From Bdellovibrionales bacterium (GTDB lineage: Bacteria > Bdellovibrionota > UBA1018 > CAIMNF01), in assembly GCA_947502835.1 (NCBI GenBank), contig CANNBJ010000006.1, forward strand, positions 153,106-217,105: 64,000 nt of DNA, in the 5' to 3' direction. The position numbers and the translations under genes are program-made. The notes beneath the pieces were generated by a model. It searched no databases, had not been told where the DNA came from, and worked only from the letters and a program-made list of their open reading frames with translations. Below are positions 48,117 through 62,345 of this stretch, one piece after another. Each line of letters starts with the position of its first letter. The stretch's first letter is position 1.

Positions 48117-49730
48117 GTGAATCAGGAAATCTTCGAGTGGCTGCAGCTCCTCGGGCGTTGGCTCCACATCACCGTGGGAATCACGTGGATCGGAACATCG
48201 ATCTTTTTCATGTGGCTTGACCGGAGTTTTGTCCGGAATCCCGACTCAAAGAACCCGGGCCATGTCGGCGAACTGTGGATGGTCCATGGAGGCGGATTCT
48301 ATCACGTGGAAAAGCTGCTCATGGGACCGACCGCAGTCCCGAAAGAGCTTCACTGGTTCAAATGGGAATCCTACTGGACCTGGCTCAGTGGAATCTTCCT
48401 GCTTGCTCTGATCTTCTATTCCGGATCCGGAACCTTCCTTCTCGATTCGAGTGTCTCGGGAATCAGTTTTCCGGAAGCGGTCCTCCTCAGTCTCGGTTCT
48501 TTGATCGGCTCCTGGGTGTTTTACGATACTCTTTGGGAATCGAATTTCGTGAAACGAAGCCCTTTCACGGGCCACATGATCACCCTGCTTTGGTTCGGCG
48601 GTATGGTGTACCTGCTCTGTCACACCCTGAGCGGTCGCGCCGCTTACATTCATATCGGCGGAATGCTCGGAACGTGGATGACCGCGAATGTGTTCCTGCG
48701 GATCATCCCCCGGCAGGTGAAGATGGTCGAGGCCGCGAAACGCGGAGAGCCCGTGAACCAGGAGTGGGCAAAAAACGCAAAAAACAGATCGACCCACAAT
48801 ACCTATTTCACGCTTCCCGTGATCTTCATCATGCTCTCGAATCATTTTCCGAACACCTACGGAAACGCCTACAACTGGCAGATCCTGATTGCGATCAGCG
48901 CTGCGGGAGCTGCGATCCGCGAGTTTTTTGTCGTGCGCCTGTCCCATCCGATGCGATCGAGGCGTTTTGGGGTCCTCGGTGCCGCAATCATTCTTGCGGT
49001 GATGTTCCTGACCCGTGAGAACACGGGCGGAAACACAAACCCGATCGAAGATCCTGCGGCCAGCACACCTGCCACTGTCGCGCCCACGCCATCGGGACCT
49101 CACGGATCCATCCGGGGAGTTGTCCGCTATCAGGGAACCCCTCCCCCGCGCGAACGCTTGTCGGTGCCCGGAGGATGCAACCCCGGAGGAAAATCAGAAA
49201 TCCTCTCCAATGACATCCTGATCGAAAGCGGCATGGTCCAAAACGTGCTCGTTTCAATCACCCGTGGACTTGCTCAAGGACCGTACGGCCCGATTCCGAA
49301 AGCCGCTGCGATCCTGGACCAAAAGGAATGCCAGTATGAACCAAGATTACTTGCCGTTCGGGTCGGTCAGCCCGTGGAGTTTCTGAACAGCGATCCGATC
49401 TTCCATAACGTGAAGTCTCTCAGCAAGAACAACGAGAACTTCAATGTGGCGATGCCTCTGAAGAACGACAAGATGACCAAGGTCTTTAGCAAACCGGAAA
49501 TCTTCATCGAATCCAAATGCAGCGTGCACCCTTGGATGAGCGCCTCCATTGCGGTCCTTGACCACCCGTATTTCAGCGTGACCGGAAAATCAGGATCCTT
49601 CCAGATCCCGGATCTTCCAGTAGGGAGCTATACGCTCGAGGCCTGGCACGAGGTTTTTGGAAGCCTGAAACAGGAAATCAAGATCGAGGACGGGAAAACC
49701 CTTGAGCTTGAGTTCGCGTACGGAAAGTAG
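48117..49730 (+). CDS. PuuD-type membrane urate oxidase fused to a cupredoxin
   Basis: 537 residues, GTG start with AAAAGGGG 6 nt upstream. Residues 1-300 match the membrane domain of the PuuD urate hydroxylase: about eight helices, W-L-H-I-T-V-G-I-T-W-I-G, H-G-G-G-F-Y-H-V-E-K and W-F-K-W-E-S-Y-W-T-W. It should oxidise urate to 5-hydroxyisourate. Known PuuD proteins end in a cytochrome c; here no C-x2-C-H exists. Instead residues 330-485 resemble a blue-copper domain with ligands H430, C468, H471 and M474, followed by a regulatory-like beta-sandwich (485-537). Electrons may thus pass to copper. HIU hydrolase follows after 6 bp. Confidence 0.85.
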   Translation: MNQEIFEWLQLLGRWLHITVGITWIGTSIFFMWLDRSFVRNPDSKNPGHVGELWMVHGGGFYHVEKLLMGPTAVPKELHWFKWESYWTWLSGIFLLALIFYSGSGTFLLDSSVSGISFPEAVLLSLGSLIGSWVFYDTLWESNFVKRSPFTGHMITLLWFGGMVYLLCHTLSGRAAYIHIGGMLGTWMTANVFLRIIPRQVKMVEAAKRGEPVNQEWAKNAKNRSTHNTYFTLPVIFIMLSNHFPNTYGNAYNWQILIAISAAGAAIREFFVVRLSHPMRSRRFGVLGAAIILAVMFLTRENTGGNTNPIEDPAASTPATVAPTPSGPHGSIRGVVRYQGTPPPRERLSVPGGCNPGGKSEILSNDILIESGMVQNVLVSITRGLAQGPYGPIPKAAAILDQKECQYEPRLLAVRVGQPVEFLNSDPIFHNVKSLSKNNENFNVAMPLKNDKMTKVFSKPEIFIESKCSVHPWMSASIAVLDHPYFSVTGKSGSFQIPDLPVGSYTLEAWHEVFGSLKQEIKIEDGKTLELEFAYGK

Positions 49731-49736
49731 GACCCC

Positions 49737-50069
49737 ATGATCAGCACCCATGTCTTGGACACCAGCATTGGAAAGCCCGCCGAAGGAATCGAGGTCGTTC
49801 TCGAACGCTTGAGCGGGGATTCTCCAGACTCCTTTCAGGAAGTGGCCCGGGGAAAGACCAACGCCGATGGCCGCCACTCCTTTGAATGCGGTCCGATTCC
49901 CGGCACATACCGGCTCACGTTCGGAATCGCGGACTATCTTGAGAAAACCCAATCCGAGTTCTTTTTCCTCTCGGCTCCGGTCATTTTCAGGATCATCAAT
50001 ACCCATAGAAAGTACCATGTGCCCCTTCTTTTAAACCCGTTCGGATATTCCACCTACCGCGGATCCTGA
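49737..50069 (+). CDS. uraH: 5-hydroxyisourate hydrolase (transthyretin-like)
   Basis: 110 residues. It hydrolyses 5-hydroxyisourate to OHCU, the second step of urate breakdown. Family motifs: I-S-T-H-V-L-D-T-S-I-G-K-P-A at the N-terminus, and at the C-terminus K-Y-H-V-P-L-L-L-N-P-F-G-Y-S-T-Y-R-G-S, the active-site signature. It lies 6 bp after the urate oxidase and 3 bp before the multidomain gene, so the three are one operon. No signal peptide, so it is cytosolic. Confidence 0.97.
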   Translation: MISTHVLDTSIGKPAEGIEVVLERLSGDSPDSFQEVARGKTNADGRHSFECGPIPGTYRLTFGIADYLEKTQSEFFFLSAPVIFRIINTHRKYHVPLLLNPFGYSTYRGS

Positions 50070-50072
50070 GCC

Positions 50073-53000
50073 ATGAAACCACTCGACATTCCCTACTACC
50101 AGGACTACCTCTCTCCCTCTCTCCTTGCGCGACTGGAGAAGGAAAGCACTCCTGTCGACGGCGTGCCGGGACTCCGGCAGATCGGGCGCTCTGGTGGACT
50201 GGAGACCCAGAGCTCACTTCGTTTCTTGTGCGAGCTCTACCATCTCTTGAAAGGCCCGCTGAACCGGATCCTTGAGCAGAGAATCGCCGATCGCAAGTTC
50301 ATCGACGAGCGGACACAGGCCTGCTTTGAACTCAATCAATCCTTGACCATCGACATCCGCGATCGGGACTATGAAACCATTCTTGGCCAGGAAGATGGTG
50401 ATGGCCGGATTGTGATGGGACCAACGAACAAATTCTATTGCCGAAAAGGCCACGGGGATCACATCGCAAATCTCCCTCCTTTTCTGCAAGGCACCCATGT
50501 CACTCTCTTTGGTCCGCCGGATGATGCAAAACTTTCCATCAATGCGATGAATGCCTTTCACCGGAGACTCAAGGACGAGCCGACCGTGGTCGGAAAGATC
50601 CTGGAAACCTGTACCGAATCCCCTTTTTGGGGTGCGGATGATGAGGACTCGAAAACCCCGTTGCGACAGGATCTGATCGCAGCAGGTGAGAACCTCAGGG
50701 GCTGCTTTCAGGGGAATTTGTCCCATCACGACGAGAAAACGGGAAAGTCCTACCGGCTCGAAGAGGAGCGTCTCTCCCTTCCGATCAAACGGTTTCCCGG
50801 GCTTGCACTCCCGTCCCCGTTTTTGTTGTTTGAGGGGAATCCGATCCCTCTTCATCTGTATGACTTCGCCCTCCATTTGTACGAGCACTGGAGAAACGAG
50901 CGGGCGCTTTGCTACTACGTGCCAAAACTCGAGAATGAAGAAGAGGCGGCCTACATCAAACTGATGATTGAAACGGCCGAGGGACTTCTCCAGAAGGAGC
51001 ATCCGGAATACGAGACAGGCTCGATCCGGCTGTTCATTGTTCTTGAGAACCCCCGCGCGATTTTCCGCGTGCATGAAATCATGGACGCACTCCATCCCTA
51101 TTTCGCGGGTGCTTCCCTGGGATGGCATGACTATCTCGCCTCCACCGCGCGCGTCTTCAAGAACGACGGAAACTACCGGATCCCCGTGAAGGCGGATCCC
51201 GAGATCGTCATCAAATACATCAAGGCATCCCACGATCTTCTGTCCGAAGTGGTGGGTTCACGGGGCGGGATCAAGATCGGAGGGATGTATGGCGTTCTTC
51301 CGATTGACAACGATCTGAAAAGCCCGTCCTTCCAGCTGACCATGAAAGGCTACATCAAGGATGTCGTTACCCAGCTGAAACGCAATCTCAGCGGGTTCTG
51401 GGTGGCACATCCGGATTTTGTAAGGCTCGGAATGGCACTCGTCCAGGCCTGGAAGCTCAGGGATTCCTCACCCCAATACCTCGATGAATTGGTGTGCTCA
51501 CTCCTCCTTCCAGAACACCATGAAGAGATCCTTGCCTTCATCCAGGGGCCGGACATCGAGGGCCTGAGTCCCGACGATCCCCGGTATCCCCGCTCCCTGA
51601 TGGTCTCTGACTTGAAAGAGTCCACGTACATCGCAAATCACGATCCCGAGGAAGTTCGCTACAATGTGTTCCAGTCCCTCCAGTATCTGACCGACTGGCT
51701 CTCCGGAAACGGCTGCGTCGCACTCCCTGCACAGATCGGAGGGGTGCCGGTCCGCGTGATGGACGATCTCGCGACCGCAGAACGATCGCGTTGGGAAGTC
51801 TGGCTCGAGATCCGCCATGGCCGGGTGTCGCTTCAGGACTTCGTGCGAATCGCCCACGAGGAAATGCGATTCATCCGGAAGGACCTCTCCGATCAAAAGA
51901 AAATCGTCCAGGTCAAGTGGGATGAACGTACCGGGAAATGGTATCCGATCGCCTATCACCTGATGATGAAGCTCATGACCGACCCCGATCCGGTCGAATT
52001 CGCATCCGAGCTTTTGCTCCCCTTCACCATTGAATCCATCCGGAACGATACGGATCCGCTCAAGCGCCTTCTGGATCTTGAGCCTGAAAAGTACAAACTT
52101 GCTCCGGATCTGGAACGACTTGACCGGTATTTCTCGATCTGCGGTTCGATGAAATTCGCACTCCCCCTCTCCCGGAGCGCGGCCTTGGATCTCAAGTTTG
52201 CCGAAACCCTCGTGATGGGATTCACAAAACAGGACATTCTCGATGCCGCATCTTTCCATGGTGACATCGGGGAGAACAAAAAAACCCTCGATCAGATGGC
52301 CGCAAACGAACAGTCCGGAGTGCTTGCGGATGGTGAAGAGCTGCGATCCCGCCTCAGGGAAGGTGGCAAGACCTACCTCTCCCGATTCGGAATGAAGTTC
52401 CTGATCTCGGCTCAAGGAAAGTCCGGATCCGAGATTCTGGGCTCACTCGAAAACCGCCTGAAAAACACCGAGGAAGAGGAGCTGCAAAATGCCAGGCGCG
52501 AGCTTTGGGCGATCAGCACGAAGCGCCTTGCTCCGCTTCATGACTCTTCCCTTGCGGTCCGGATTGAGGCACTCAGATTAAAACACGGAATCACAGGAGC
52601 ACAGATCTCGCTGAGTTCAGGGACAGGAATCCATCAGGATCTTTGCTTCGGGCATGCATTCCGCGGAGGTCCCGAGGTCGAGCCTGCCACCCGATTTGAG
52701 CTCGCATCCCTCAGCAAGACACTTGCGTCCGCATTTGCCCTCGAGTTCTTCAAATCAAAATCAATTTCCCTGGATGCCCAGGTGAATCCGATTTTGAAGA
52801 AAACCCGCTCCACCTGGCAGATCGGATCCCTTGATATCTCCCATCCGACTTGGGGAGATCAGGTCCGCATTCTGAACCTGATGAAGCACAATGCCTTAAA
52901 CCAGCACTATGTGAAGGGGTTTCCCGCCGGAAAGCCCCTTCCCGGCATGCTCTCGATCCTGAAAGACCCGACACGGTACGGCTACACTGAAACGGGGGCG

Positions 53001-54800
53001 CTGTTTCAGCCGGGAACAGGATTCCAATACTCCGGCGGCGGCTTCCTTGTTCTTGAGCACCTCCTCGAGTCCCTGGAAGGGAAATCCATGGCCGAGCTTG
53101 CGGATCCGTTTTTCAAAAAAATGGGACTCCCCGAGCTCACGTTTCAGTGCCTGGATCAAGAGGGTCTTGTCTATGCCAAGGGGTATCGAAAAAACGGATC
53201 CGAAATTCCGGGCGGTCGGCTTTCCTTCCCCGCCTGCGCGGCGGGGGTTCTCGGAACGGCCGGAAGTTACCATCGCTTCCTCTCGATTCTGGAAACCTCC
53301 TTTCATCAGGATCAACCAAGTTCCGGCATTTCCCATGACACCGCCACACGCATGCTCGAGGACACCGACAGCGCAAGCCAGGAATTCATGGGTGTCAATG
53401 CAGGAATCGGCGTCTTCATCGGCGAGGCGCTTGAGAACCGCTTTGCCATTCATCAGGGCGCAAACGATGGATTCCGCTGCCTCTCGCTCCACTGCTTCCG
53501 AGGGCCGGATCGCGGCAAGGGCCTGGTCATTCTCTGCAACGGCGATGACAATGGGGTTCTGTTTTGTGCCGAGGTCGCTCAGGAAATCTTGAAGGAACTG
53601 GAAATTTCCGGCGTCGACACGCGTGCCTTCCGGACCGATCTTGATTCAACGAAGGTCCCGGTCGAGGAAATCGTGAACCTCGGGTACAAGAATCTCGTAT
53701 TCAAGGCGTTTCTGCCGGACCTTCCGGAGGAAATCCACCCGAGGGGCCCACTTGATCCTCTCGCAAAATACAATCTTCTCACGGGTGCATCCATCAAGAG
53801 CGTCACCAATCAACGATTCGCCCGCGCCGAGAATCTGATCTCGCCGCATGAACCCGTGTTTGATCCCTCTCTTTACGGAAGACAAGGCAAGGTCATGGAC
53901 AGCTGGGAGAGTGCCCGTCACAACCCGCGCGAATCCGATCGTGTGGTGATTGAACTCAAGCGCCCCTCCTATGTTCATTACATTCGCCTCTCCACACGCT
54001 ACCATTTCGGCAACCAGGCTCCCTTGGTCGAAATCCTGGGCCAGAAGGCCGGAGCGAACACGTGGATCACTCTGTTGCCCAAAACCCCGATGGAAGGTCA
54101 CTCAAGGAAACACTTGCTCTCCTCGAATTCTTCCACACTGATTTCCACCATCAAAGTGAAAATGACCCCCGACGGCGGGCTCACACGACTGGCACTTTTT
54201 GATGATCTTTTGCCCCCTGAAGAGAAAGCACGCTACAAGGATGCAGCCTCGGCGGAGTGTCTCCACGATCCGGACCCGATTCCACAGCCAAGAAAACCAC
54301 TTGCTCCTGACTATGATCCGGATCCTGAAAAGGTGATCCGGAACTTTGGAAGGCTCCCCCCCGGCAAGGCGTTTGATCTTGCAAGCGTGGCCTATGGTGC
54401 AAGAATCCTCTCTGCCTCGAACGAACATTACAGCCCGGCCTCCCGCATGATCTCTCCCTTCGCACCGATCCACATGTTTGATGGTCTTGAGTCGGCCCGG
54501 AGCCGGAATCCGGGGCACACGGAGTCCGTGCATCTGCAACTCGCACGACCAGGGAAATTAAAGCGATTGGAAATGGATTTCACCTATTTCCGGAACAACA
54601 ACCCCCGCGAGGTCGAGCTCCATGGCCTATCAAACGGAGTCTGGAAGCAAATCCTGCCAAAGACCCTTGTCAAACACTACGCGGGGAATCGATTCCTGAA
54701 GGACCTTGACCTGAAAGAAGTCTTCACCGAAGTGAAGCTCATCGTACATCCGGACGGGGGAGTGAACCGCCTCCATCTGTTCGGGACTCCTGCGGATTGA
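50073..54800 (+). CDS. Four-domain ureide enzyme: malate synthase, OHCU decarboxylase, beta-lactamase-like, allantoicase
   Basis: 1575 residues. 1-665: malate synthase A-like: A-D-D-E-D-S (188-193), E325 in V-L-E-N, D353, I-G-G-M (402-405), W-V-A-H-P (443-447), and M-D-D-L-A-T-A-E-R-S-R with the catalytic-base position D565; the R-P-R-G-W loop is not clear. 685-822: OHCU decarboxylase (UraD)-like, H729 in F-H-G-D-I-G, E746 in N-E-Q-S-G. 825-1170: serine beta-lactamase/esterase fold, S879-L-S-K882, Y986-S-G, H1127-Q-G. 1200-1575: two allantoicase repeats (F-A-R-A-E-N-L-I-S-P at 1249; S-R-M-I-S-P at 1457). Each part supplies a ureide step except the beta-lactamase-like one, proposed as allantoinase replacement. 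No breaks in frame. Confidence 0.88.
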   Translation: MKPLDIPYYQDYLSPSLLARLEKESTPVDGVPGLRQIGRSGGLETQSSLRFLCELYHLLKGPLNRILEQRIADRKFIDERTQACFELNQSLTIDIRDRDYETILGQEDGDGRIVMGPTNKFYCRKGHGDHIANLPPFLQGTHVTLFGPPDDAKLSINAMNAFHRRLKDEPTVVGKILETCTESPFWGADDEDSKTPLRQDLIAAGENLRGCFQGNLSHHDEKTGKSYRLEEERLSLPIKRFPGLALPSPFLLFEGNPIPLHLYDFALHLYEHWRNERALCYYVPKLENEEEAAYIKLMIETAEGLLQKEHPEYETGSIRLFIVLENPRAIFRVHEIMDALHPYFAGASLGWHDYLASTARVFKNDGNYRIPVKADPEIVIKYIKASHDLLSEVVGSRGGIKIGGMYGVLPIDNDLKSPSFQLTMKGYIKDVVTQLKRNLSGFWVAHPDFVRLGMALVQAWKLRDSSPQYLDELVCSLLLPEHHEEILAFIQGPDIEGLSPDDPRYPRSLMVSDLKESTYIANHDPEEVRYNVFQSLQYLTDWLSGNGCVALPAQIGGVPVRVMDDLATAERSRWEVWLEIRHGRVSLQDFVRIAHEEMRFIRKDLSDQKKIVQVKWDERTGKWYPIAYHLMMKLMTDPDPVEFASELLLPFTIESIRNDTDPLKRLLDLEPEKYKLAPDLERLDRYFSICGSMKFALPLSRSAALDLKFAETLVMGFTKQDILDAASFHGDIGENKKTLDQMAANEQSGVLADGEELRSRLREGGKTYLSRFGMKFLISAQGKSGSEILGSLENRLKNTEEEELQNARRELWAISTKRLAPLHDSSLAVRIEALRLKHGITGAQISLSSGTGIHQDLCFGHAFRGGPEVEPATRFELASLSKTLASAFALEFFKSKSISLDAQVNPILKKTRSTWQIGSLDISHPTWGDQVRILNLMKHNALNQHYVKGFPAGKPLPGMLSILKDPTRYGYTETGALFQPGTGFQYSGGGFLVLEHLLESLEGKSMAELADPFFKKMGLPELTFQCLDQEGLVYAKGYRKNGSEIPGGRLSFPACAAGVLGTAGSYHRFLSILETSFHQDQPSSGISHDTATRMLEDTDSASQEFMGVNAGIGVFIGEALENRFAIHQGANDGFRCLSLHCFRGPDRGKGLVILCNGDDNGVLFCAEVAQEILKELEISGVDTRAFRTDLDSTKVPVEEIVNLGYKNLVFKAFLPDLPEEIHPRGPLDPLAKYNLLTGASIKSVTNQRFARAENLISPHEPVFDPSLYGRQGKVMDSWESARHNPRESDRVVIELKRPSYVHYIRLSTRYHFGNQAPLVEILGQKAGANTWITLLPKTPMEGHSRKHLLSSNSSTLISTIKVKMTPDGGLTRLALFDDLLPPEEKARYKDAASAECLHDPDPIPQPRKPLAPDYDPDPEKVIRNFGRLPPGKAFDLASVAYGARILSASNEHYSPASRMISPFAPIHMFDGLESARSRNPGHTESVHLQLARPGKLKRLEMDFTYFRNNNPREVELHGLSNGVWKQILPKTLVKHYAGNRFLKDLDLKEVFTEVKLIVHPDGGVNRLHLFGTPAD

Positions 54801-55581
54801 GATCACGCCGAAACGAGAGCATCTGGGCTGCAATCGAGATGGCGATCTCGGATGGATCGTTCTTCCCGTAGTCCTCACCCATGGGACAGTGAAAGCCCTG
54901 CACCCGCTCAGGCGGAATTCCGGCCGCAAGGAGATCGGAATTGATCTTGAGACGTTTGACCTTGCTCCCGATCACTCCAAGGTACGGAAACTTCCGAACC
55001 TCAAGCGCCCGCTTCACGAGTGGATAATCGGTGGCATGCCCCATCGTGATGATGCCCACAAAACACTCCTCGGGCAGTCTTTCGATTTCCGCCACCATGT
55101 CACCACAAACCTGCTTTGTCAGTCTCGGATGATCCGAAAGTTTTGCGATCCACTCGGACCTCGGATCAAAGACCTGAAGCCTGCACTCGAGCTTCAAAAG
55201 CAGGGGCGCAAGTTCCTGAACAATGTGCCCTGCCCCGAAAAGTGCAATTTGCCATTCCCGATTGCCCGAAAACACCTCAAACAGGATGCTCACCTCGCCC
55301 CCGCAACTCATCCCGATGTCGCGCTGTAAATTCCAGGTAAACCCCCGCTTCAAGGGTCCGTCCTTTGCCTCGAGATATTCCCTTGAAAGCTCGATGCACC
55401 GTTTTTCGATCTTGCCTCCCCCAATGGTTCCAAACAGAATCCCCTCATGTCCCACCACCATGCGCGCTCCGAGATCCTGCGGCACATGGCCCCGCTCACC
55501 TGTGAGCGTGACCACCACGATCGGCGTTCCGGCTCTGCGCCACTCAAGGAACTTTTCACAAAACACTTCGAAATTCGCCAT
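54739..55581 (-). CDS. xdhC: XdhC-type molybdenum cofactor sulfuration/insertion factor
   Basis: 280 residues. Chaperone that binds Moco, promotes its sulfuration and inserts it into xanthine dehydrogenase. The N-terminal XdhC/CoxI domain has G-T-I-G-G-G-K-I-E and G-M-S-C-G-G-E (Moco-binding Cys); the C-terminal Rossmann part has F-G-A-G-H-I-V-Q-E-L-A. The ATG at 55581 (AAGGGG 8 nt upstream) is preferred to the in-frame TTG at 55587. It lies 2 bp after xdhB. Its last 62 bp overlap the end of the four-domain gene tail to tail. Confidence 0.9.
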   Translation of the reverse strand: MANFEVFCEKFLEWRRAGTPIVVVTLTGERGHVPQDLGARMVVGHEGILFGTIGGGKIEKRCIELSREYLEAKDGPLKRGFTWNLQRDIGMSCGGEVSILFEVFSGNREWQIALFGAGHIVQELAPLLLKLECRLQVFDPRSEWIAKLSDHPRLTKQVCGDMVAEIERLPEECFVGIITMGHATDYPLVKRALEVRKFPYLGVIGSKVKRLKINSDLLAAGIPPERVQGFHCPMGEDYGKNDPSEIAISIAAQMLSFRRDLNPQESRTDGGGSLPRPDVR

Positions 55582-55583
55582 GA

Positions 55584-57920
55584 TCAAACCCCTTTCGGAC
55601 GGCTGAGCTCCATCAGAATCACCTCAGACGTGGCCGGAGAGGTCAGTCGAATCTCCTGCCCGTCTGCACGGAAGGACAAGGCATGCTTGATCGCAGTCCA
55701 GACACTCGTGCCAAGCAGAAACGGGGGCTCGCCCACGGCTTTGGATCCGTGAACATTCCGGTCGTTGTTCGGATTCTCGATGAAGTCCACATGAAATTCG
55801 CGGGGTGTGTCCTGCACGTTTGGAATCTTGTAGGTGGTCGGGGAATGGGTCAGAAGATTCCTCTTCTTGTCATACACCAAATGCTCGGAACTCACCCAGC
55901 CCATGCCCTGAATGAATGCACCCGTGGTCTGGCCCCGATCGATTCCGGGATTCAGTGATCTCCCGAGGTCCATCAGAATGTCGACCCTTCTGACCTTCAT
56001 TTCTCCGGTATACTCATCCAGCTCAACCTCGGACACCGCCATCCCTTGGGTGAAATAGTTGAACGCACGGCCCGTAACCCGGGTCTTGTCAAAGCCCAGG
56101 CCCGGTGTCTTGTAGTGCGCATAGGAACCAAGGGGAATCCGGTTTTGGTAGGCTGTTTGAATGAGTTCCTTAAGTGGCACCGAGGCCCCGGACCGCGAGT
56201 CCCTGACTTGAGCGTCTTCGAACACGAATGAAGCATCGGGTGCGGCGTCATGATCAGGCCCCGGATCGAATTCCGTGGTGGGATCAAACACAAAGCCCTC
56301 GAATTTTGCTTTGGCAAGCTTGATCAGTCGATTCTTGATCCGGTTGCAGGCAAGCAAGGCGGCAGCACCGTTCAAATCAGACCCACTTGAAGCGGCGGTG
56401 GGCGAGGTGTTGTGGTTCTTTTCGGTCGAGGTCGGCATCATCCTCACGGCATCCGGGATTACGCCGAAGGCGTGCGCCACGATCTGCTGGATCTTGGTGT
56501 TCACCCCTTGTCCCATCTCGGTGGCCCCGGTGCTCACTTGCAGGGTTCCATCGAGTTGAAGGTTCACCAGGGCATTGGCCTGGTTTAAGAACCTCGCCGT
56601 AAATGAAATCCCGAACTTGGTCGCCGTAAGCGAGATCCCCCGCACGCGGCCCTGGCGCTTGGAATTGAACGCGATGATCTCCTGCAAGCGCTCGCGGTAG
56701 CGAGAACTCTCAAGGATCCTCTCATGGATCTCGGGCAGGAGATTGTTCTCAAGGACCTGTCCATACGGAGTCCGAAGATTGTTTCCGGAATACAGGTTGA
56801 TCCTTCTGACCTCACTTGCATCTTTCTTCAGAAAATGCGCCACATCCTCCAGAATGCTCTCGATGGTCATATTGCCCTGCGGTCCGCCGAAGCCGCGAAA
56901 CGCGGTGTGTGGATGATGATGCGTCCTGAAACACACGCCCTCGATCCGGACATTCGGAAGGAAATAGGCGCCATCCAGATGAAACATCGCGCGCTCCAGA
57001 ATCGAGGAGGAGAGATCAAGGTAGGCGCCCCCATCCGATTGTAGAAGGGCCTTCACGGCGAGCAAGCGCCCCTCCGGATCAAACCCGACTTCATACTCGT
57101 TTTGAAACGGGTGCCGTTTTCCGGTGATCATCATGTCCTGGTCTTTGGTGAGGACAATTCTTGCCGGACGCTTCAGGCGATCCGCAACCAGGGCGGCATA
57201 GGCAGCAATCGGCGCACCCTGTGACTCCTTGCCCCCGAATCCACCTCCCATGCGCTTCACCACACACACGACCTGATGAAACGGGATCCCAAGTGCCTCC
57301 GCCACCACTCGTTGGGTTTCGCTTGGATGCTGGGAAGAGGAGTGAACCTCGATTTGTCCGTTTTCAAGCGGATAGGCGATCGCAGCCTGGGACTCGAGAT
57401 AAAAATGCTCCTGGCCCCCGCAAATGAAAACCCCTTTCAGCCGATGGGGAGCAGCCTGCAGAACGGCATCCACATCTCCTTGCACAAAGGGACTTGCGGC
57501 GCGATACAAAACCTCCCCCTTGGCCCTTGCCTCATCAATGCTGAAAACCCCCTCTGTTTCGATGGTCTCGATTCTGACAAGTTTCTTCACCGTCTCAAGT
57601 GAATCCCTGCGGGCGCACGCCACAAGACACACGGCCTCCTGCATGTAAGAAATTTCATCGACCACCAAAAAGGGCTGATCGTGTGTGATCGTTCCCCAGC
57701 GTTTTGCATGGAAATCGCTCGCCGTATAGACCCCAAGACAATCCGGATGTGAGAGCGCCTCGCGAGCATCAATCGACTTGAGCTTCCCGCGGGCAATCGG
57801 ACTCCCGACCACTCCCACATGAACCTCACCCCGTACCTCGGGGCGGTCATCGATGAAGATACTTTCGCCTGCCACATGGGTGAGTGCGGAATCATGCCTG
57901 AGATTCGTGCCGATGCTCAT
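55584..57920 (-). CDS. xdhB: Xanthine dehydrogenase, molybdopterin-binding subunit
   Basis: 778 residues. Large catalytic subunit that hydroxylates hypoxanthine/xanthine to urate. Motifs: G-G-Q-E-H-F-Y-L-E (Mo-site Gln), G-G-G-F-G-G-K-E, A-F-R-G-F-G-G-P-Q (substrate Arg region), E-M-G-Q-G-V-N-T-K, and catalytic Glu in V-G-E-P-P-F near residue 735. The length matches the XdhB subunit of two-subunit enzymes. It overlaps xdhA (ATGA) and is followed by xdhC. Related aldehyde oxidases are the alternative; the urate-breakdown genes opposite favour xanthine. Confidence 0.93.
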   Translation of the reverse strand: MSIGTNLRHDSALTHVAGESIFIDDRPEVRGEVHVGVVGSPIARGKLKSIDAREALSHPDCLGVYTASDFHAKRWGTITHDQPFLVVDEISYMQEAVCLVACARRDSLETVKKLVRIETIETEGVFSIDEARAKGEVLYRAASPFVQGDVDAVLQAAPHRLKGVFICGGQEHFYLESQAAIAYPLENGQIEVHSSSQHPSETQRVVAEALGIPFHQVVCVVKRMGGGFGGKESQGAPIAAYAALVADRLKRPARIVLTKDQDMMITGKRHPFQNEYEVGFDPEGRLLAVKALLQSDGGAYLDLSSSILERAMFHLDGAYFLPNVRIEGVCFRTHHHPHTAFRGFGGPQGNMTIESILEDVAHFLKKDASEVRRINLYSGNNLRTPYGQVLENNLLPEIHERILESSRYRERLQEIIAFNSKRQGRVRGISLTATKFGISFTARFLNQANALVNLQLDGTLQVSTGATEMGQGVNTKIQQIVAHAFGVIPDAVRMMPTSTEKNHNTSPTAASSGSDLNGAAALLACNRIKNRLIKLAKAKFEGFVFDPTTEFDPGPDHDAAPDASFVFEDAQVRDSRSGASVPLKELIQTAYQNRIPLGSYAHYKTPGLGFDKTRVTGRAFNYFTQGMAVSEVELDEYTGEMKVRRVDILMDLGRSLNPGIDRGQTTGAFIQGMGWVSSEHLVYDKKRNLLTHSPTTYKIPNVQDTPREFHVDFIENPNNDRNVHGSKAVGEPPFLLGTSVWTAIKHALSFRADGQEIRLTSPATSEVILMELSRPKGV

Positions 57921-59356
57921 ACACTGACCTCCCCCGAAAGCTCGTCATGGAAGCGAAGAAGCAGATTGGCTGCAAGCCGGTGCCGGTACTCGGCTGAACC
58001 CCGCACATCCGAGATCGGTGTGATCTCGTTTCGAATGGATTGGGACAACCCTTGAAACAGCGCGCGGGTCAGAGGCTTCCCGATGACTTCCTTCTCGATT
58101 TTTCCGAATCGCAGAACGCTCGGCCCCACTCCGCCTAGCGCAAGCGAAAACTCGCGAAAGACTCCGTCTTCGAGTCGGTACCGTGCTGCAAAGGTCACGG
58201 CCGAAATGTCGAGATCCTTGCGGTTTGATGCCTTATAAAGCTTGAATTCATCGGAGGTGAGCGGAAGCTCGATTGCGGTAACCAGTTCGTTGGCATTGAG
58301 GTCCATCTTCTTGTAACCCGGAAGGATGAACTCATTTACTCCCACCCGCCGCTCCCCCGCAGGGGACGAGAGAATCACCACCGCATCCGCGACCCTGAGG
58401 AACGGGATCGTGTCCGCGATGGGAGAGGCATTCATGAGGTTTCCCACGAGGGTGGCCGAGTTCTTGATCTGCGGTGAGGCGAAAATACGGAGAAGTGACG
58501 AAAACTCAGGAAACTCCTGTGTAAGCTCTCGCTCCAACTGATGAAGACTCACGCGCGCGCCGATCCGGACAAAGTGCGGAGTTCGTTCCACCCGGTGAAG
58601 CTCCTCGATCTGTTGCAAGGAAAGCACGCGATTCAACTGCAAACGCCCCTTGTTCGATACGACGCCGAGATCCGTGGTTCCTGCCGAAAGGCGGATCGCG
58701 GGATCAGAGGCTCTCTCCGCCAGGGCTTCAGAAAGGGTAACCGGCAGGAACACTTCCTTGCCTACTCCCTTGATCCGGATGCTTTCGTGTGGAACAAGGG
58801 AAAGCTCCGAAAGAACCACCTCATCCCTGTGGAGTTCCGAGAGTTTCGTTACACGACCGAGGTCCATGGAAACTCCGGCCTCGAGGATCGGTGCGTATCC
58901 TGTGCATCGGCAGAGATTCCCGGTGGTGTAGTTCCGAACCTTCTTTTCATCCGGAGTGAACCCCTTGCTCAACGCATCCTCCGCAAGGAGCGCCATCGAG
59001 CACACGAATCCGGGAGTGCAGTATCCGCATTGGGATCCTTGCTTCTCGACCATCGCCGCTTGAACCGGATGAAGCTGCCCGTCTTTCTTGAGTCCCTCGA
59101 CCGTGATCAGATGCGCGCGATCGAGCGAATACACATACGCAATGCAGGAATTGATCGAATGATAGGGACCAAGTCGACCTTGAATCATCCGGGAGACAAG
59201 CACGGTGCAGGCACCACAATCTCCTTCCGCACAAACCACCTTGGTGCCTGTGAGGCCCCGTTCATAGCGCAGGTAATCCGAAACCGTAAGGAATGCCAAA
59301 TCTCCCGAAACTTCCTGCCGTTTTCCGTTCAGATAAAATACAATGCTTGATCTCAT
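57917..59356 (-). CDS. xdhA: Xanthine dehydrogenase, [2Fe-2S]/FAD subunit
   Basis: 479 residues: two [2Fe-2S] domains (C-A-E-G-D-C-G-A-C near 40-50; C-G-Y-C-T-P-G and C-R-C-T-G-Y near 105-145), then an FAD-binding CODH-flavoprotein-type domain from about 190 (L-S-A-G-T-T-D-L-G-V, I-G-A-R-V-S-L). This is the fused small subunit as in Rhodobacter XdhA. The frame is open to 59425, but the ATG at 59356 (M-R-S-S-I-V-F-Y-L-N-G) starts the family N-terminus and overlaps the moaE stop. Electrons go to NAD+ or another acceptor. Confidence 0.93.
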   Translation of the reverse strand: MRSSIVFYLNGKRQEVSGDLAFLTVSDYLRYERGLTGTKVVCAEGDCGACTVLVSRMIQGRLGPYHSINSCIAYVYSLDRAHLITVEGLKKDGQLHPVQAAMVEKQGSQCGYCTPGFVCSMALLAEDALSKGFTPDEKKVRNYTTGNLCRCTGYAPILEAGVSMDLGRVTKLSELHRDEVVLSELSLVPHESIRIKGVGKEVFLPVTLSEALAERASDPAIRLSAGTTDLGVVSNKGRLQLNRVLSLQQIEELHRVERTPHFVRIGARVSLHQLERELTQEFPEFSSLLRIFASPQIKNSATLVGNLMNASPIADTIPFLRVADAVVILSSPAGERRVGVNEFILPGYKKMDLNANELVTAIELPLTSDEFKLYKASNRKDLDISAVTFAARYRLEDGVFREFSLALGGVGPSVLRFGKIEKEVIGKPLTRALFQGLSQSIRNEITPISDVRGSAEYRHRLAANLLLRFHDELSGEVSV

Positions 59357-59799
59357 ATTCCTCCACACAGGGCATGGCCCTTGAGCCATTCGGTTTCCCC
59401 GTCCCGGTAAAACTCTTTTTTCCAAATGGGCGCTCTTTTCTTCAATTCTTCAATCACATACCGGCATGCCTGAAACGCCTCGGCCCGATGGGGTGTGACT
59501 ACCGCAATCAGCACACTGAGTTCCCCCACCCCGAGCTTGCCGGTCCGGTGGCGAATCACCACGGTCCCGTGCGTTCCCGCTTGTGTCAGAGCCTCCTCCG
59601 CGATTCTCTGCAACTCACGCCTTGCGAGCGGAACATAGGCATCATAAGAAACGGCAATCACCTCGCGGCCGTGATTTCGCGCTCGCACGGTCCCGAAAAA
59701 CAAATCGCATGCTCCACAATCGGGGCGAATCCAGGATGAAACATCAAGATTTCCTGCATCAAGCGGAGCCTCGCTCACTTCAATCTCGATCCGGTTCAT
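59353..59799 (-). CDS. moaE: Molybdopterin synthase large subunit
   Basis: 148 residues. With MoaD it inserts the two sulfurs that turn cPMP into molybdopterin. Motifs: F-F-G-T-V-R-A-R-N-H-G-R-E-V, Y-D-A-Y-V, H-R-T-G-K-L-G-V-G-E, and P-I-W-K-K-E-F with the conserved lysines. The ATG at 59799 is chosen over the longer frame (to 59940) because it gives the family N-terminus. One base separates it from the moaD stop. Confidence 0.94.
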   Translation of the reverse strand: MNRIEIEVSEAPLDAGNLDVSSWIRPDCGACDLFFGTVRARNHGREVIAVSYDAYVPLARRELQRIAEEALTQAGTHGTVVIRHRTGKLGVGELSVLIAVVTPHRAEAFQACRYVIEELKKRAPIWKKEFYRDGETEWLKGHALCGGI

Positions 59800-59800
59800 T

Positions 59801-60082
59801 TCATCCTCCACACACCGGAGGAAGCAGCGCCAGATTCTGAAGGGTGCGCAAGCGCTCACCGGGCGAAAGCACGGACTCCTCATCCGCAAGGGCACATTCC
59901 CGGAGGATGCCCGGATCAAACCCCGCCCCGTTTCTTTCAAAATGCCGGATCAGTTCGTCCTTAAGTTCGGCGCACGTTTCGACATCAACAGGGCTCTCGA
60001 GTTCAAGTTCGAGCATTCCATTCGCATCGGAATGATTTCGAAGCACCCCGAACACCCGAAGCTTCAGTTTTTGCACTCTCAT
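59801..60082 (-). CDS. moaD: Molybdopterin synthase small subunit (sulfur carrier)
   Basis: 93 residues, ubiquitin-like fold, ending P-V-C-G-G: the C-terminal Gly-Gly is thiocarboxylated and donates sulfur to cPMP. The activating enzyme MoeB is not in the window. It overlaps moeA by 4 bp. The Cys just before the Gly pair is unusual. Confidence 0.93.
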   Translation of the reverse strand: MRVQKLKLRVFGVLRNHSDANGMLELELESPVDVETCAELKDELIRHFERNGAGFDPGILRECALADEESVLSPGERLRTLQNLALLPPVCGG

Positions 60083-61356
60083 GCGTCCATCCTTTCCGCG
60101 AAGGGAAAAAACTCAATGCCCCCCGCTTCTCCCGGCACACCCGACGCAGGGATCACCGCCCAGCCATTCGCTCCGGAGAACGAATGCACCATGAACGAAG
60201 CCTGTCCTTTGGGAATCTCGATCTGGAGCACTCCATCGGCTCTTGACTCGGCTTTTGCCCTGAAAAACGTTTTGAATCCAGGCGGTGCCGAGGGGCAGGT
60301 TCCAGAAATCCTCCCGAGAAGCGGCCTTGGTTCCGGGATTCCGAATCGTTCGCGGAGAAAGGGGGCCACAAAAAAATCCACACCCACGACCGTCGAAACG
60401 GGATTTCCCGGAAGACCAATGAGACGGGTTTCCGGGAAACCCGGAAACTCCGAAAAAAGAACCGGCTTCCCCGGACGAATGGCCACCTTGTGAAACAAGA
60501 CCCGCCCTCCATTTCGCTCCACAGACGGCCTGATGAAGTCATGAATGCCCATCGAAACGGCGCCTGTAGTCAGGATCAAATCAAACCCCTCCGACAAGGC
60601 AGCCTTCAGGGCCCGTTCAAACTCTTCTGGTTTTTCGGAAGCCTCGTCTCGAACGACACCGAAATTCCGGACCTCACACCCCAACTCCCGGAGTGCCTGC
60701 ATCAAATAAGGCGCTGTCGAGTTTCGAATGGCTCCCTCGGTCACTTCTGTTTGATCATGCGGAACAAGTTCATTTCCCGTCGAGATCAGCGCAACCCGTG
60801 GCTTCCGGTGCACCACGACTCGCGCGCATCCAAGAGCCGCAAGCCCAAGAATGGCTTTTGCGTCGATCCTGCTTCCCGGGCGAACCAGTAGATCGCCCTT
60901 CTCAAAATCGGATCCGCGCCGCCTCACATGGGCTGCACTCGCAGAGATCGATTCAAACCGGATCAAAGTTCCACCCGTGGAATCCTTTAGAATGCCCACA
61001 TCCTCGACCTTCACAATCAAATCAAATCCACCCTGTGGAAGCGGCGCCCCCGTCATGATCTGAACTGCAGTTTTTTCTCTCACCTGAGTGTCCGGCAAAT
61101 CTCCCGCGATCTTGAGCGAAGAAACGGGGAACTCATTCCAACCGGACTGAAGGTCGCAGGAACGTACCGCAAACCCGTCCATGGCGGAATTGTCGAGCGA
61201 GGGCACATCGAACCCGGCCCGAACCTCCTTTGCAATCACCCGGTGAGCACTCTCGGTCAGAGGAATCTCCTCCACGCTCGCAGGGCAGGCCCGGGCCGAA
61301 TCGCATAGAATCCGGATCGCATCCTCATAAGAAAGCAAGGATCCCATGGCCTTCAT
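60079..61356 (-). CDS. moeA: Molybdopterin molybdenumtransferase
   Basis: 425 residues. It inserts molybdate into adenylylated molybdopterin. Typical strings: D-V-P-S-L-D-N-S-A-M-D-G-F-A-V-R (residues about 50-65), M-T-G-A-P-L-P-Q-G, I-S-T-G-N-E-L-V, and L-T-T-G-A-V-S-M-G with the C-terminal L-P-G-N-P-V-S. The start at 61356 overlaps the moaA stop; an internal ATG at 61347 is possible. No separate mogA is needed because the divergent moaC gene carries a MoaB/MogA-like domain. Confidence 0.94.
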   Translation of the reverse strand: MKAMGSLLSYEDAIRILCDSARACPASVEEIPLTESAHRVIAKEVRAGFDVPSLDNSAMDGFAVRSCDLQSGWNEFPVSSLKIAGDLPDTQVREKTAVQIMTGAPLPQGGFDLIVKVEDVGILKDSTGGTLIRFESISASAAHVRRRGSDFEKGDLLVRPGSRIDAKAILGLAALGCARVVVHRKPRVALISTGNELVPHDQTEVTEGAIRNSTAPYLMQALRELGCEVRNFGVVRDEASEKPEEFERALKAALSEGFDLILTTGAVSMGIHDFIRPSVERNGGRVLFHKVAIRPGKPVLFSEFPGFPETRLIGLPGNPVSTVVGVDFFVAPFLRERFGIPEPRPLLGRISGTCPSAPPGFKTFFRAKAESRADGVLQIEIPKGQASFMVHSFSGANGWAVIPASGVPGEAGGIEFFPFAERMDA

Positions 61357-62345
61357 CCTCCCATCACCGAAAAATTCCGGGCCGCACCGACACGGCCTTC
61401 CTTCAAAAAGTGGGACACGGGCTTTGCCCTCAGGAGCTCGCCCATGCGATCGGAGATGCCGAGCGCGTCCTCTTTCGAACGAAGGAGATCACGGAGCGAT
61501 TGGTCCTTCTCTCCGAACAAACAAAGCTTCAGTCGGCCCCTTGAGGTGACCCTCAAGCGGTTGCACGACTCGCAAAAGCCCTCCGCATGAGGTGCGATCA
61601 ATCCGATTCGACCGACAAATTCAGGATGAGAAAATTCCATCGCAGGACCTGAGGTCTCTCCCCTAGCAAGAGGCATCCATCCGTTTTGCAACAACTGAAG
61701 CTTCAGTTCTCCTGCCGAGAGAAAATGCCGATCACGATACTCCCCCCTCTCCCCCGTCCGCATGAGCTCGATGAAGCGAACACTGAGTGGCCGCGTTTTG
61801 ATCAACTCCAAAAACCGATCGAGCTCCTGAACCGCAGTCTCCTTGTGCAAGACTGCGTTGACCTTGACGCCTGCGAAGCCAAGCGAAAGCGCCTCTTCGA
61901 TCCCGGCAAGCACAAGAGGAAGGGAGTCACGCCCGCTGAGACTCTTAAAGCGTTCCCGATCCAGGCTGTCCACACTCACATTGAGATGGGTAAGACCTGC
62001 GGTTCGAAGACGAGCTGCGATCGATTTCAAATTCCATCCATTTGTGGAGAGCGCACGAATCCCGATTCCAGGCGTCTCACTGGCTGCTGAAATGATTTCA
62101 AAGAGATCCGCCCTCAGGGTCGGTTCGCCGCCTGTGATCCTCACCTTTTGAAATCCTGCTGCGGCCACTCCGTGGAAGAGGTTTTCGATTTCGTAAAGGT
62201 CAAGCTCCGGCTCGGATTCGCTCAACTTCGGTCGATACCCCTCCGGCAGGCAATACCGGCAGCTGAAGTTGCACATTTCTGTAATCGACAACCTCAAGTA
62301 GCTGAATTTCCGAGCATATGGGTCCGTGAGCATCGCCCCGAGCAT
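61353..62345 (-). CDS. moaA: GTP 3',8-cyclase (radical SAM)
   Basis: 330 residues. First step of Moco synthesis, forming 3',8-cH2GTP for MoaC. The radical-SAM cluster is C25-N-F-S-C-R-Y-C32; the second cluster uses C-E-S-C-N-R-L-R and G-R-L-K-L-C near 265-285, and the chain ends M-G-G with the catalytic Gly-Gly. The ATG at 62345 or the one at 62333 (M-L-T-D-P-Y) may be used. First gene of the minus-strand run moaA-moeA-moaD-moaE-xdhA-xdhB-xdhC, so one transcript may make both cofactor and enzyme. Confidence 0.95.
   Translation of the reverse strand: MLGAMLTDPYARKFSYLRLSITEMCNFSCRYCLPEGYRPKLSESEPELDLYEIENLFHGVAAAGFQKVRITGGEPTLRADLFEIISAASETPGIGIRALSTNGWNLKSIAARLRTAGLTHLNVSVDSLDRERFKSLSGRDSLPLVLAGIEEALSLGFAGVKVNAVLHKETAVQELDRFLELIKTRPLSVRFIELMRTGERGEYRDRHFLSAGELKLQLLQNGWMPLARGETSGPAMEFSHPEFVGRIGLIAPHAEGFCESCNRLRVTSRGRLKLCLFGEKDQSLRDLLRSKEDALGISDRMGELLRAKPVSHFLKEGRVGAARNFSVMGG

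Follow-up and report, generated by a model that had tools for sequence, protein, structure and literature searches.

In the established pathway of urate breakdown, allantoinase is needed between allantoin, the product of 2-oxo-4-hydroxy-4-carboxy-5-ureidoimidazoline (OHCU) decarboxylase, and allantoate, the substrate of allantoicase. Here, this step is considered for a Bdellovibrionales bacterium, starting from a window of 64,000 nucleotides (contig CANNBJ010000006.1, positions 153,106 to 217,105 of the forward strand) in which one gene (50073..54800, + strand) encodes, in a single open frame of 1575 codons, a protein of 1575 residues. The gene is unbroken in the assembly (G000:C6:203178-207902; G, C and L designate genomes, contigs and loci). 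It joins malate synthase-, OHCU decarboxylase-, serine-hydrolase- (beta-lactamase-like) and allantoicase-like domains in that order, and judging from the comparison of genomes the serine-hydrolase domain is probably an allantoinase that needs no metal and would fill the step before allantoicase.

Architecture and conservation of the fusion protein

Five Pfam domains were found in the fusion protein, all above their curated cut-offs: MS_TIM-barrel (residues 240-456, 4.6e-19), MS_C (residues 526-643, 2.5e-11), OHCU_decarbox (PF09349, residues 709-820, 2.1e-20), Beta-lactamase (PF00144, residues 832-1161, 9.8e-23) and Allantoicase (PF03561), the last in two stretches, of which residues 1238-1376 match best (3e-50). 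These matches bear out the four-domain order that an initial annotation, made from the letters of the window, had read in one chain; the C-terminal region and residues 685-822, whose failure to match would by its own account have refuted that reading, both gave significant profile matches. NCBIfam equivalog models of the same enzymes are matched too, but below their cut-offs, so that the domains are to be regarded as divergent members of their families.

The malate synthase A-like part (residues 1-665; 50073..52067, + strand) carries PF01274 and PF20659 above cut-off together with the active-site set R240, E325, D353 and D565. It matches E. coli malate synthase A at 2.3e-31 with these four residues aligned, and its AlphaFold2 model (pLDDT 91.0) has 3cv2 as best Foldseek match (TMt 0.83). 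The E. coli enzyme has the same fold and the same kept R, E, D and D; it differs from the fusion part, to which it is ~24% identical by structural alignment, in that the latter has an extended N-terminal part, is fused to ureide domains and resides in a genome with no isocitrate lyase match. The malate synthase A equivalog TIGR01344 is not reached (138.6 bits; cut-off 594.5); judged by its residues, this part would work like malate synthase A while standing outside the equivalog.

The OHCU decarboxylase-like part (residues 666-824; 52068..52544, + strand) combines PF09349 (74.3 bits; cut-off 24) with the catalytic His/Glu pair H729 and E746 and matches 5uou_A at 1.9e-14, with the NCBIfam cut-offs of the OHCU decarboxylase subfamilies not being reached by the fusion protein. 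In the allantoicase-like part (residues 1215-1575; 53715..54797, + strand), both repeats are present (PF03561, 170.4 bits; cut-off 27), and yeast allantoicase 1sg3 is matched at 2.5e-34; TIGR02961 gives 188.6 bits, below its cut-off of 277.9. Fusion of two of these ureide domains is also seen in the allantoicase-OHCU decarboxylase proteins (NF010371/PRK13797), whose model is matched at 7e-46. However, these proteins have another domain order and lack both malate synthase and serine hydrolase, and the fusion scores 156.9 against their cut-off of 814.

The fusion is a conserved family. A protein search returned 639 homologues, and the 120 that were listed all carry the same five Pfam domains; 34 fusion loci in GTDB contigs come from Bdellovibrionota, Planctomycetota and a few other groups. 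R240, E325, D353, D565, H729, E746, S879, K882, Y986 and H1127 are each identical in 121/121 aligned members, and these include every active-site residue singled out by the initial annotation (D565, E325, D353, H729, E746, S879, K882 and H1127). Nor is there any variation, in the two allantoicase repeats, at the residues of DxWExxRH and DxxExxRxR. R240/E325/D353/D565, H729/E746 and the other kept residues are those which we take to be catalytic from general knowledge of the families and from the alignments. The architecture had been described as one without known example; it is not confined to this protein, since hundreds of database proteins share it, the listed ones under names such as serine hydrolase, malate synthase or allantoicase/malate synthase/CubicO. 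The components have thus been noticed before, though no description of their function turned up. In the open-licence literature no paper was found on the fusion architecture or on a serine-type allantoinase, which is not proof of absence.

The serine-hydrolase domain and the allantoinase step

The predicted allantoinase is the serine-hydrolase part, of class C beta-lactamase fold (residues 825-1214; 52545..53714, + strand). Its end lies at about residue 1214 and not at 1170, as first proposed, the tail being common to stand-alone relatives. The fold, the SxxK motif and the catalytic Tyr (S879, K882 and Y986, kept in all 121 aligned fusion members), with PF00144 at 81.3 bits (cut-off 27), place it in family S12, which holds the class C beta-lactamase, D-amino acid amidase and R61 DD-peptidase group. 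The NCBIfam model of true class C beta-lactamases, bla_class_C, is not reached (17.6 bits; cut-off 415), and solved enzymes resemble the part only weakly in sequence (best 1.7e-4). In contrast to the S12 group, YSG replaces YxN, the HxxxxxHY and HQxAN motifs are invariant, and the serine hydrolase is built into a ureide protein. Besides S879, K882, Y986 and H1127, the part has the family-specific residues H939, H945, Y946, N1131 and R1135; HYV is found in 127/140 close relatives and is absent from the five distant S12 rows checked (0/5).

The AllB-type allantoinase (TIGR03178), a metal-dependent cyclic amidohydrolase, would catalyze the same reaction, allantoin to allantoate, at the same pathway position, but its fold and chemistry differ. 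The fusion protein has no amidohydrolase domain, and neither TIGR03178 nor TIGR03212 (PuuE) matches it. The domain is accordingly proposed to work like allantoinase, not to belong to the AllB family. PuuE allantoinase, of the polysaccharide deacetylase family, is a precedent for an unrelated allantoinase, and the serine-hydrolase domain would be another unrelated fold recruited for allantoin hydrolysis.

In the Bdellovibrionales genome, a single TIGR03178 match (225.7 bits; cut-off 357.85) was rejected as allantoinase, the protein being a dihydroorotase (TIGR00857, 393.6 bits; cut-off 279.05); PuuE has no match there and none over its cut-off among 290 genomes of the phylum. Allantoicase (PF03561) occurs in 74 of these 290 genomes, as the fusion in 50, as a separate gene in 23 and in mixed form in G262, a mixed or intermediate state (L077, L078 and L079) in which two malate synthase parts occur on their own and an allantoinase-OHCU decarboxylase fusion measures 617 residues. 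Canonical allantoinase exceeds its cut-off in 22 of the 290 genomes, namely 21 of the 23 separate-gene genomes and G262, and in none of the 50 fusion genomes. The other two separate-gene genomes, G021 and G117, hold contig-cut allantoinase pieces (308 and 312 bits). The canonical enzyme is also absent from the 34 genomes reached via the GTDB loci, which partly repeat species of the phylum set and add Planctomycetota and others.

Counted by genus, allantoinase is present in 0/18 fusion and in 14/14 separate-gene genera, the cut piece of G021 being taken as present. Fisher tests, from which G262 was excluded on both sides, give p 2.3e-16 by genome and 2.1e-9 by genus with shared descent ignored. 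Genera g15 and g19 each include one fusion species and one separate-gene species. In 41 of the 50 fusion genomes the fusion is one match over at least 95% of the protein, and in nine it was put together from matches cut by contig ends or broken in frame; of the serine-hydrolase domain, G276 shows the end only. Judged by gene content, a serine hydrolase in the chain goes with the loss of the classical allantoinase, save in G262, and canonical allantoinase is near-perfectly replaced by the serine-hydrolase domain. The initial annotation had given the beta-lactamase-like domain no role in its scheme; for the allantoinase step, the genome comparison points to that domain.

Searching with the domain by itself, and afterwards with its aligned single-domain relatives as query, also revealed stand-alone proteins of ~420 residues, 35-42% identical (120 of 195 listed). 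Among their sources are EukProt and MMETSP and the species Prymnesium parvum, Sphaeroforma arctica and Amorphochlora amoebiformis. Only 14 of the listed relatives are labelled as to eukaryote source or species, the others being called eukaryotic by grouping only. Screening of 145 proteins by start Met, length and motifs led to 57 being dropped and 88 full-length ones being kept. A strict peroxisomal targeting signal type 1 (PTS1, [SAC][KRH][LM]) ends 37 of these 88, 25 of them as SKL, while 0.27 would be expected from shuffled tails; it is present in 6 of the 14 labelled relatives and in 2/120 bacterial fusions. S879, K882, Y986, H1127, H939, H945, Y946, N1131 and R1135 are invariant over fusion and stand-alone rows. 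In a tree, the 18 sampled stand-alone rows fall on one side of a branch (98/96), with 24 bacterial rows next to them; support for the bacterial rows as a group is weak (89/66), and long branches in the outgroup carry a flag. A peroxisomal address fits an enzyme of urate breakdown, since urate oxidase and other urate-breakdown enzymes are peroxisomal in many eukaryotes (PMC8919083 and PMC9244630). An allantoinase, be it canonical or of another type, is named in the protists studied in PMC6320678 and PMC9244630.

Proposed route and competing explanations

In the proposed route, PuuD and 5-hydroxyisourate (HIU) hydrolase, encoded upstream of the fusion gene, would convert urate into OHCU, and the OHCU decarboxylase part would yield (S)-allantoin. 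S879 would attack the ring amide carbonyl of allantoin, K882 and Y986 serving as base and acid, and water would hydrolyse the opened acyl-enzyme to give allantoate, much as cyclic amides are opened by beta-lactamases. Urea and ureidoglycolate would then be released by the allantoicase part, the latter would give glyoxylate and urea by decay or through an unassigned cleaving activity, and the malate synthase part would turn glyoxylate and acetyl-CoA into malate, the urea being excreted. A run from urate to malate had been put forward initially: the domains and the upstream genes fit it, while the chain of reactions itself stays a proposal, with no PF04115 match for the ureidoglycolate step.

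We give somewhat better than even credence to a fuller proposal, namely that this is a third allantoinase of independent evolutionary origin, a metal-free serine hydrolase of beta-lactamase fold. It would occur by itself in the peroxisomes of diverse protists, whereas predatory-type bacteria and planctomycetes would have it within a single-chain urate-to-malate enzyme, where intermediates would pass between domains and glyoxylate would be caught by the protein's own malate synthase. The pathway is a known one; its architecture here is new, and the class of enzyme for one of its known reactions is probably new as well. If the proposal is true, a substrate is assigned to a domain for which annotation in many bacteria and protists offers no more than serine hydrolase or CubicO, beta-lactamase-type chemistry opens a natural hydantoin ring in core metabolism, and lineages seemingly without allantoinase regain the step they appeared to miss. 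For annotation, absence of AllB or PuuE should then not be read as absence of the allantoin step. The protein would also be a rare single chain with most of a catabolic route, ending in a central metabolite, and for this reason channelling is directly testable.

Several observations weigh against an allantoinase function. The fold is common to esterases, peptidases and beta-lactamases and names no substrate; the Fisher statistics ignore the relatedness of the genomes; and 51/88 stand-alone relatives lack a strict PTS1, including all three with an NCBI species name. Furthermore, G262 holds a contig-edge serine-hydrolase end with allantoicase in addition to a canonical allantoinase-OHCU decarboxylase gene, so that the domain and canonical allantoinase are not strictly exclusive, unless this bin is mixed; perfect exclusivity was rejected on this ground. 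Finally, the domain may have a ureidoglycolate-cleaving role. According to this explanation, which we hold to be unlikely, its substrate is ureidoglycolate or a different ureide from late in the route, and a dihydroorotase or other enzyme opens allantoin. Ureidoglycolate is the substrate directly before the malate synthase step, and the genome has no match to ureidoglycolate lyase (PF04115) either, leaving that step open too. However, of the 10 genomes with separate allantoicase among the 97 nearest, 7 lack the lyase and only G018, G021 and G035 possess it, so that lacking it is nothing unusual, whereas all 10 hold an allantoinase gene or piece. Moreover, dihydroorotase-like matches are present in nearly all genomes of both kinds, yet the separate-gene genomes retain allantoinase.

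It is less likely still that the domain, as a serine hydrolase, has a function beside the pathway (for example peptide or ester cleavage, or D-amino acid release) and was fused for co-expression, with the pathway stopping at allantoin or another allantoinase acting elsewhere. Many esterases and peptidases do have this fold, and the similarity to solved enzymes is weak, as noted above, but if the pathway ended at allantoin, the allantoicase and malate synthase domains, with their invariant residues, would have no substrate, and mutual replacement with allantoinase is unexpected for a side role. It is highly improbable that the fusion gene is chimeric or in decay. Frame breaks or stops do occur in some fusion relatives (G185, G197 and L027), but here there is one open frame, full-length relatives at 40-80% identity are found in many species, and the active sites are invariant. 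The same full-length gene is present in independent contigs (99, 80 and 79% identity), which disfavours a frameshift or false join within 50073-54800, either of which would have refuted the initial annotation; a chimera or assembly error was ruled out on the single frame and these contigs. The stop in L027 (9001-13590, a contig titled Pseudomonadales) is a single in-frame one in the serine hydrolase part, and this locus has no HIU hydrolase neighbour.

Glyoxylate metabolism and gene neighbourhood

No match to isocitrate lyase was found in the Bdellovibrionales genome, and on this ground the idea that the malate synthase part serves a glyoxylate shunt was rejected there. This part is likely dedicated to ureide glyoxylate, as the initial annotation had supposed in letting it capture the glyoxylate. 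No urease was seen in this genome, and urea is thus probably excreted. Elsewhere, 32/50 fusion genomes have no isocitrate lyase match over the cut-off, and in 17 of the other 18 the match is near-full, the exception being G170 (a 53-bit match in a 306-residue frame); a separate malate synthase is also listed in 16 of these 17. In G183:C18, G207:C101 and G236:C124, matches to classical malate synthase and to isocitrate lyase are found within one and the same open frame (984-1004 residues), making up a fused glyoxylate shunt.

Upstream of the fusion gene and on the same strand lie the genes of a PuuD-like membrane urate oxidase (48117..49730; Urate_ox_N, PF06181, 2.4e-105) and of a transthyretin-like HIU hydrolase with the C-terminus YRGS (49737..50069; PF00576, 5.1e-30), separated by 6 nucleotides from each other and by 3 from the fusion gene; the link made initially between the fusion and two upstream genes is thereby upheld. 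Among the 27 fusion loci that have the gene start and >500 nucleotides upstream, HIU hydrolase adjoins the fusion gene in 26 (21 on the same strand and 5 divergent), L027 being the exception. PuuD is found in 20/34 fusion loci and xdhB in 18/34, many loci being cut by contig ends. The PuuD-like protein has a cupredoxin-like C-terminal extension instead of cytochrome c, in which FHN...C-x2-H-x2-M is kept in 16/16 aligned extensions; published PuuD carries cytochrome c in its place (PMC4562309). By this motif, the protein is possibly a blue-copper urate oxidase.

Downstream, on the - strand, an XdhC-like xanthine dehydrogenase accessory gene (54739..55587; PF13478, 7.1e-29; TIGR02964, 4.5e-46, slightly below cut-off) converges with the fusion gene, their 3′ ends overlapping by 62 nucleotides (54739-54800). 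It is followed on the same strand by genes for an XdhB-like molybdopterin subunit (55584..57920; TIGR02965, 5.4e-252, 838.3 bits; cut-off 849.5) and an XdhA-like small subunit (57917..59425; TIGR02963, 1.9e-132, 442.2 bits; cut-off 467) of xanthine dehydrogenase, and then by the molybdenum cofactor genes MoaE, MoeA and MoaA (59353-62345, - strand).
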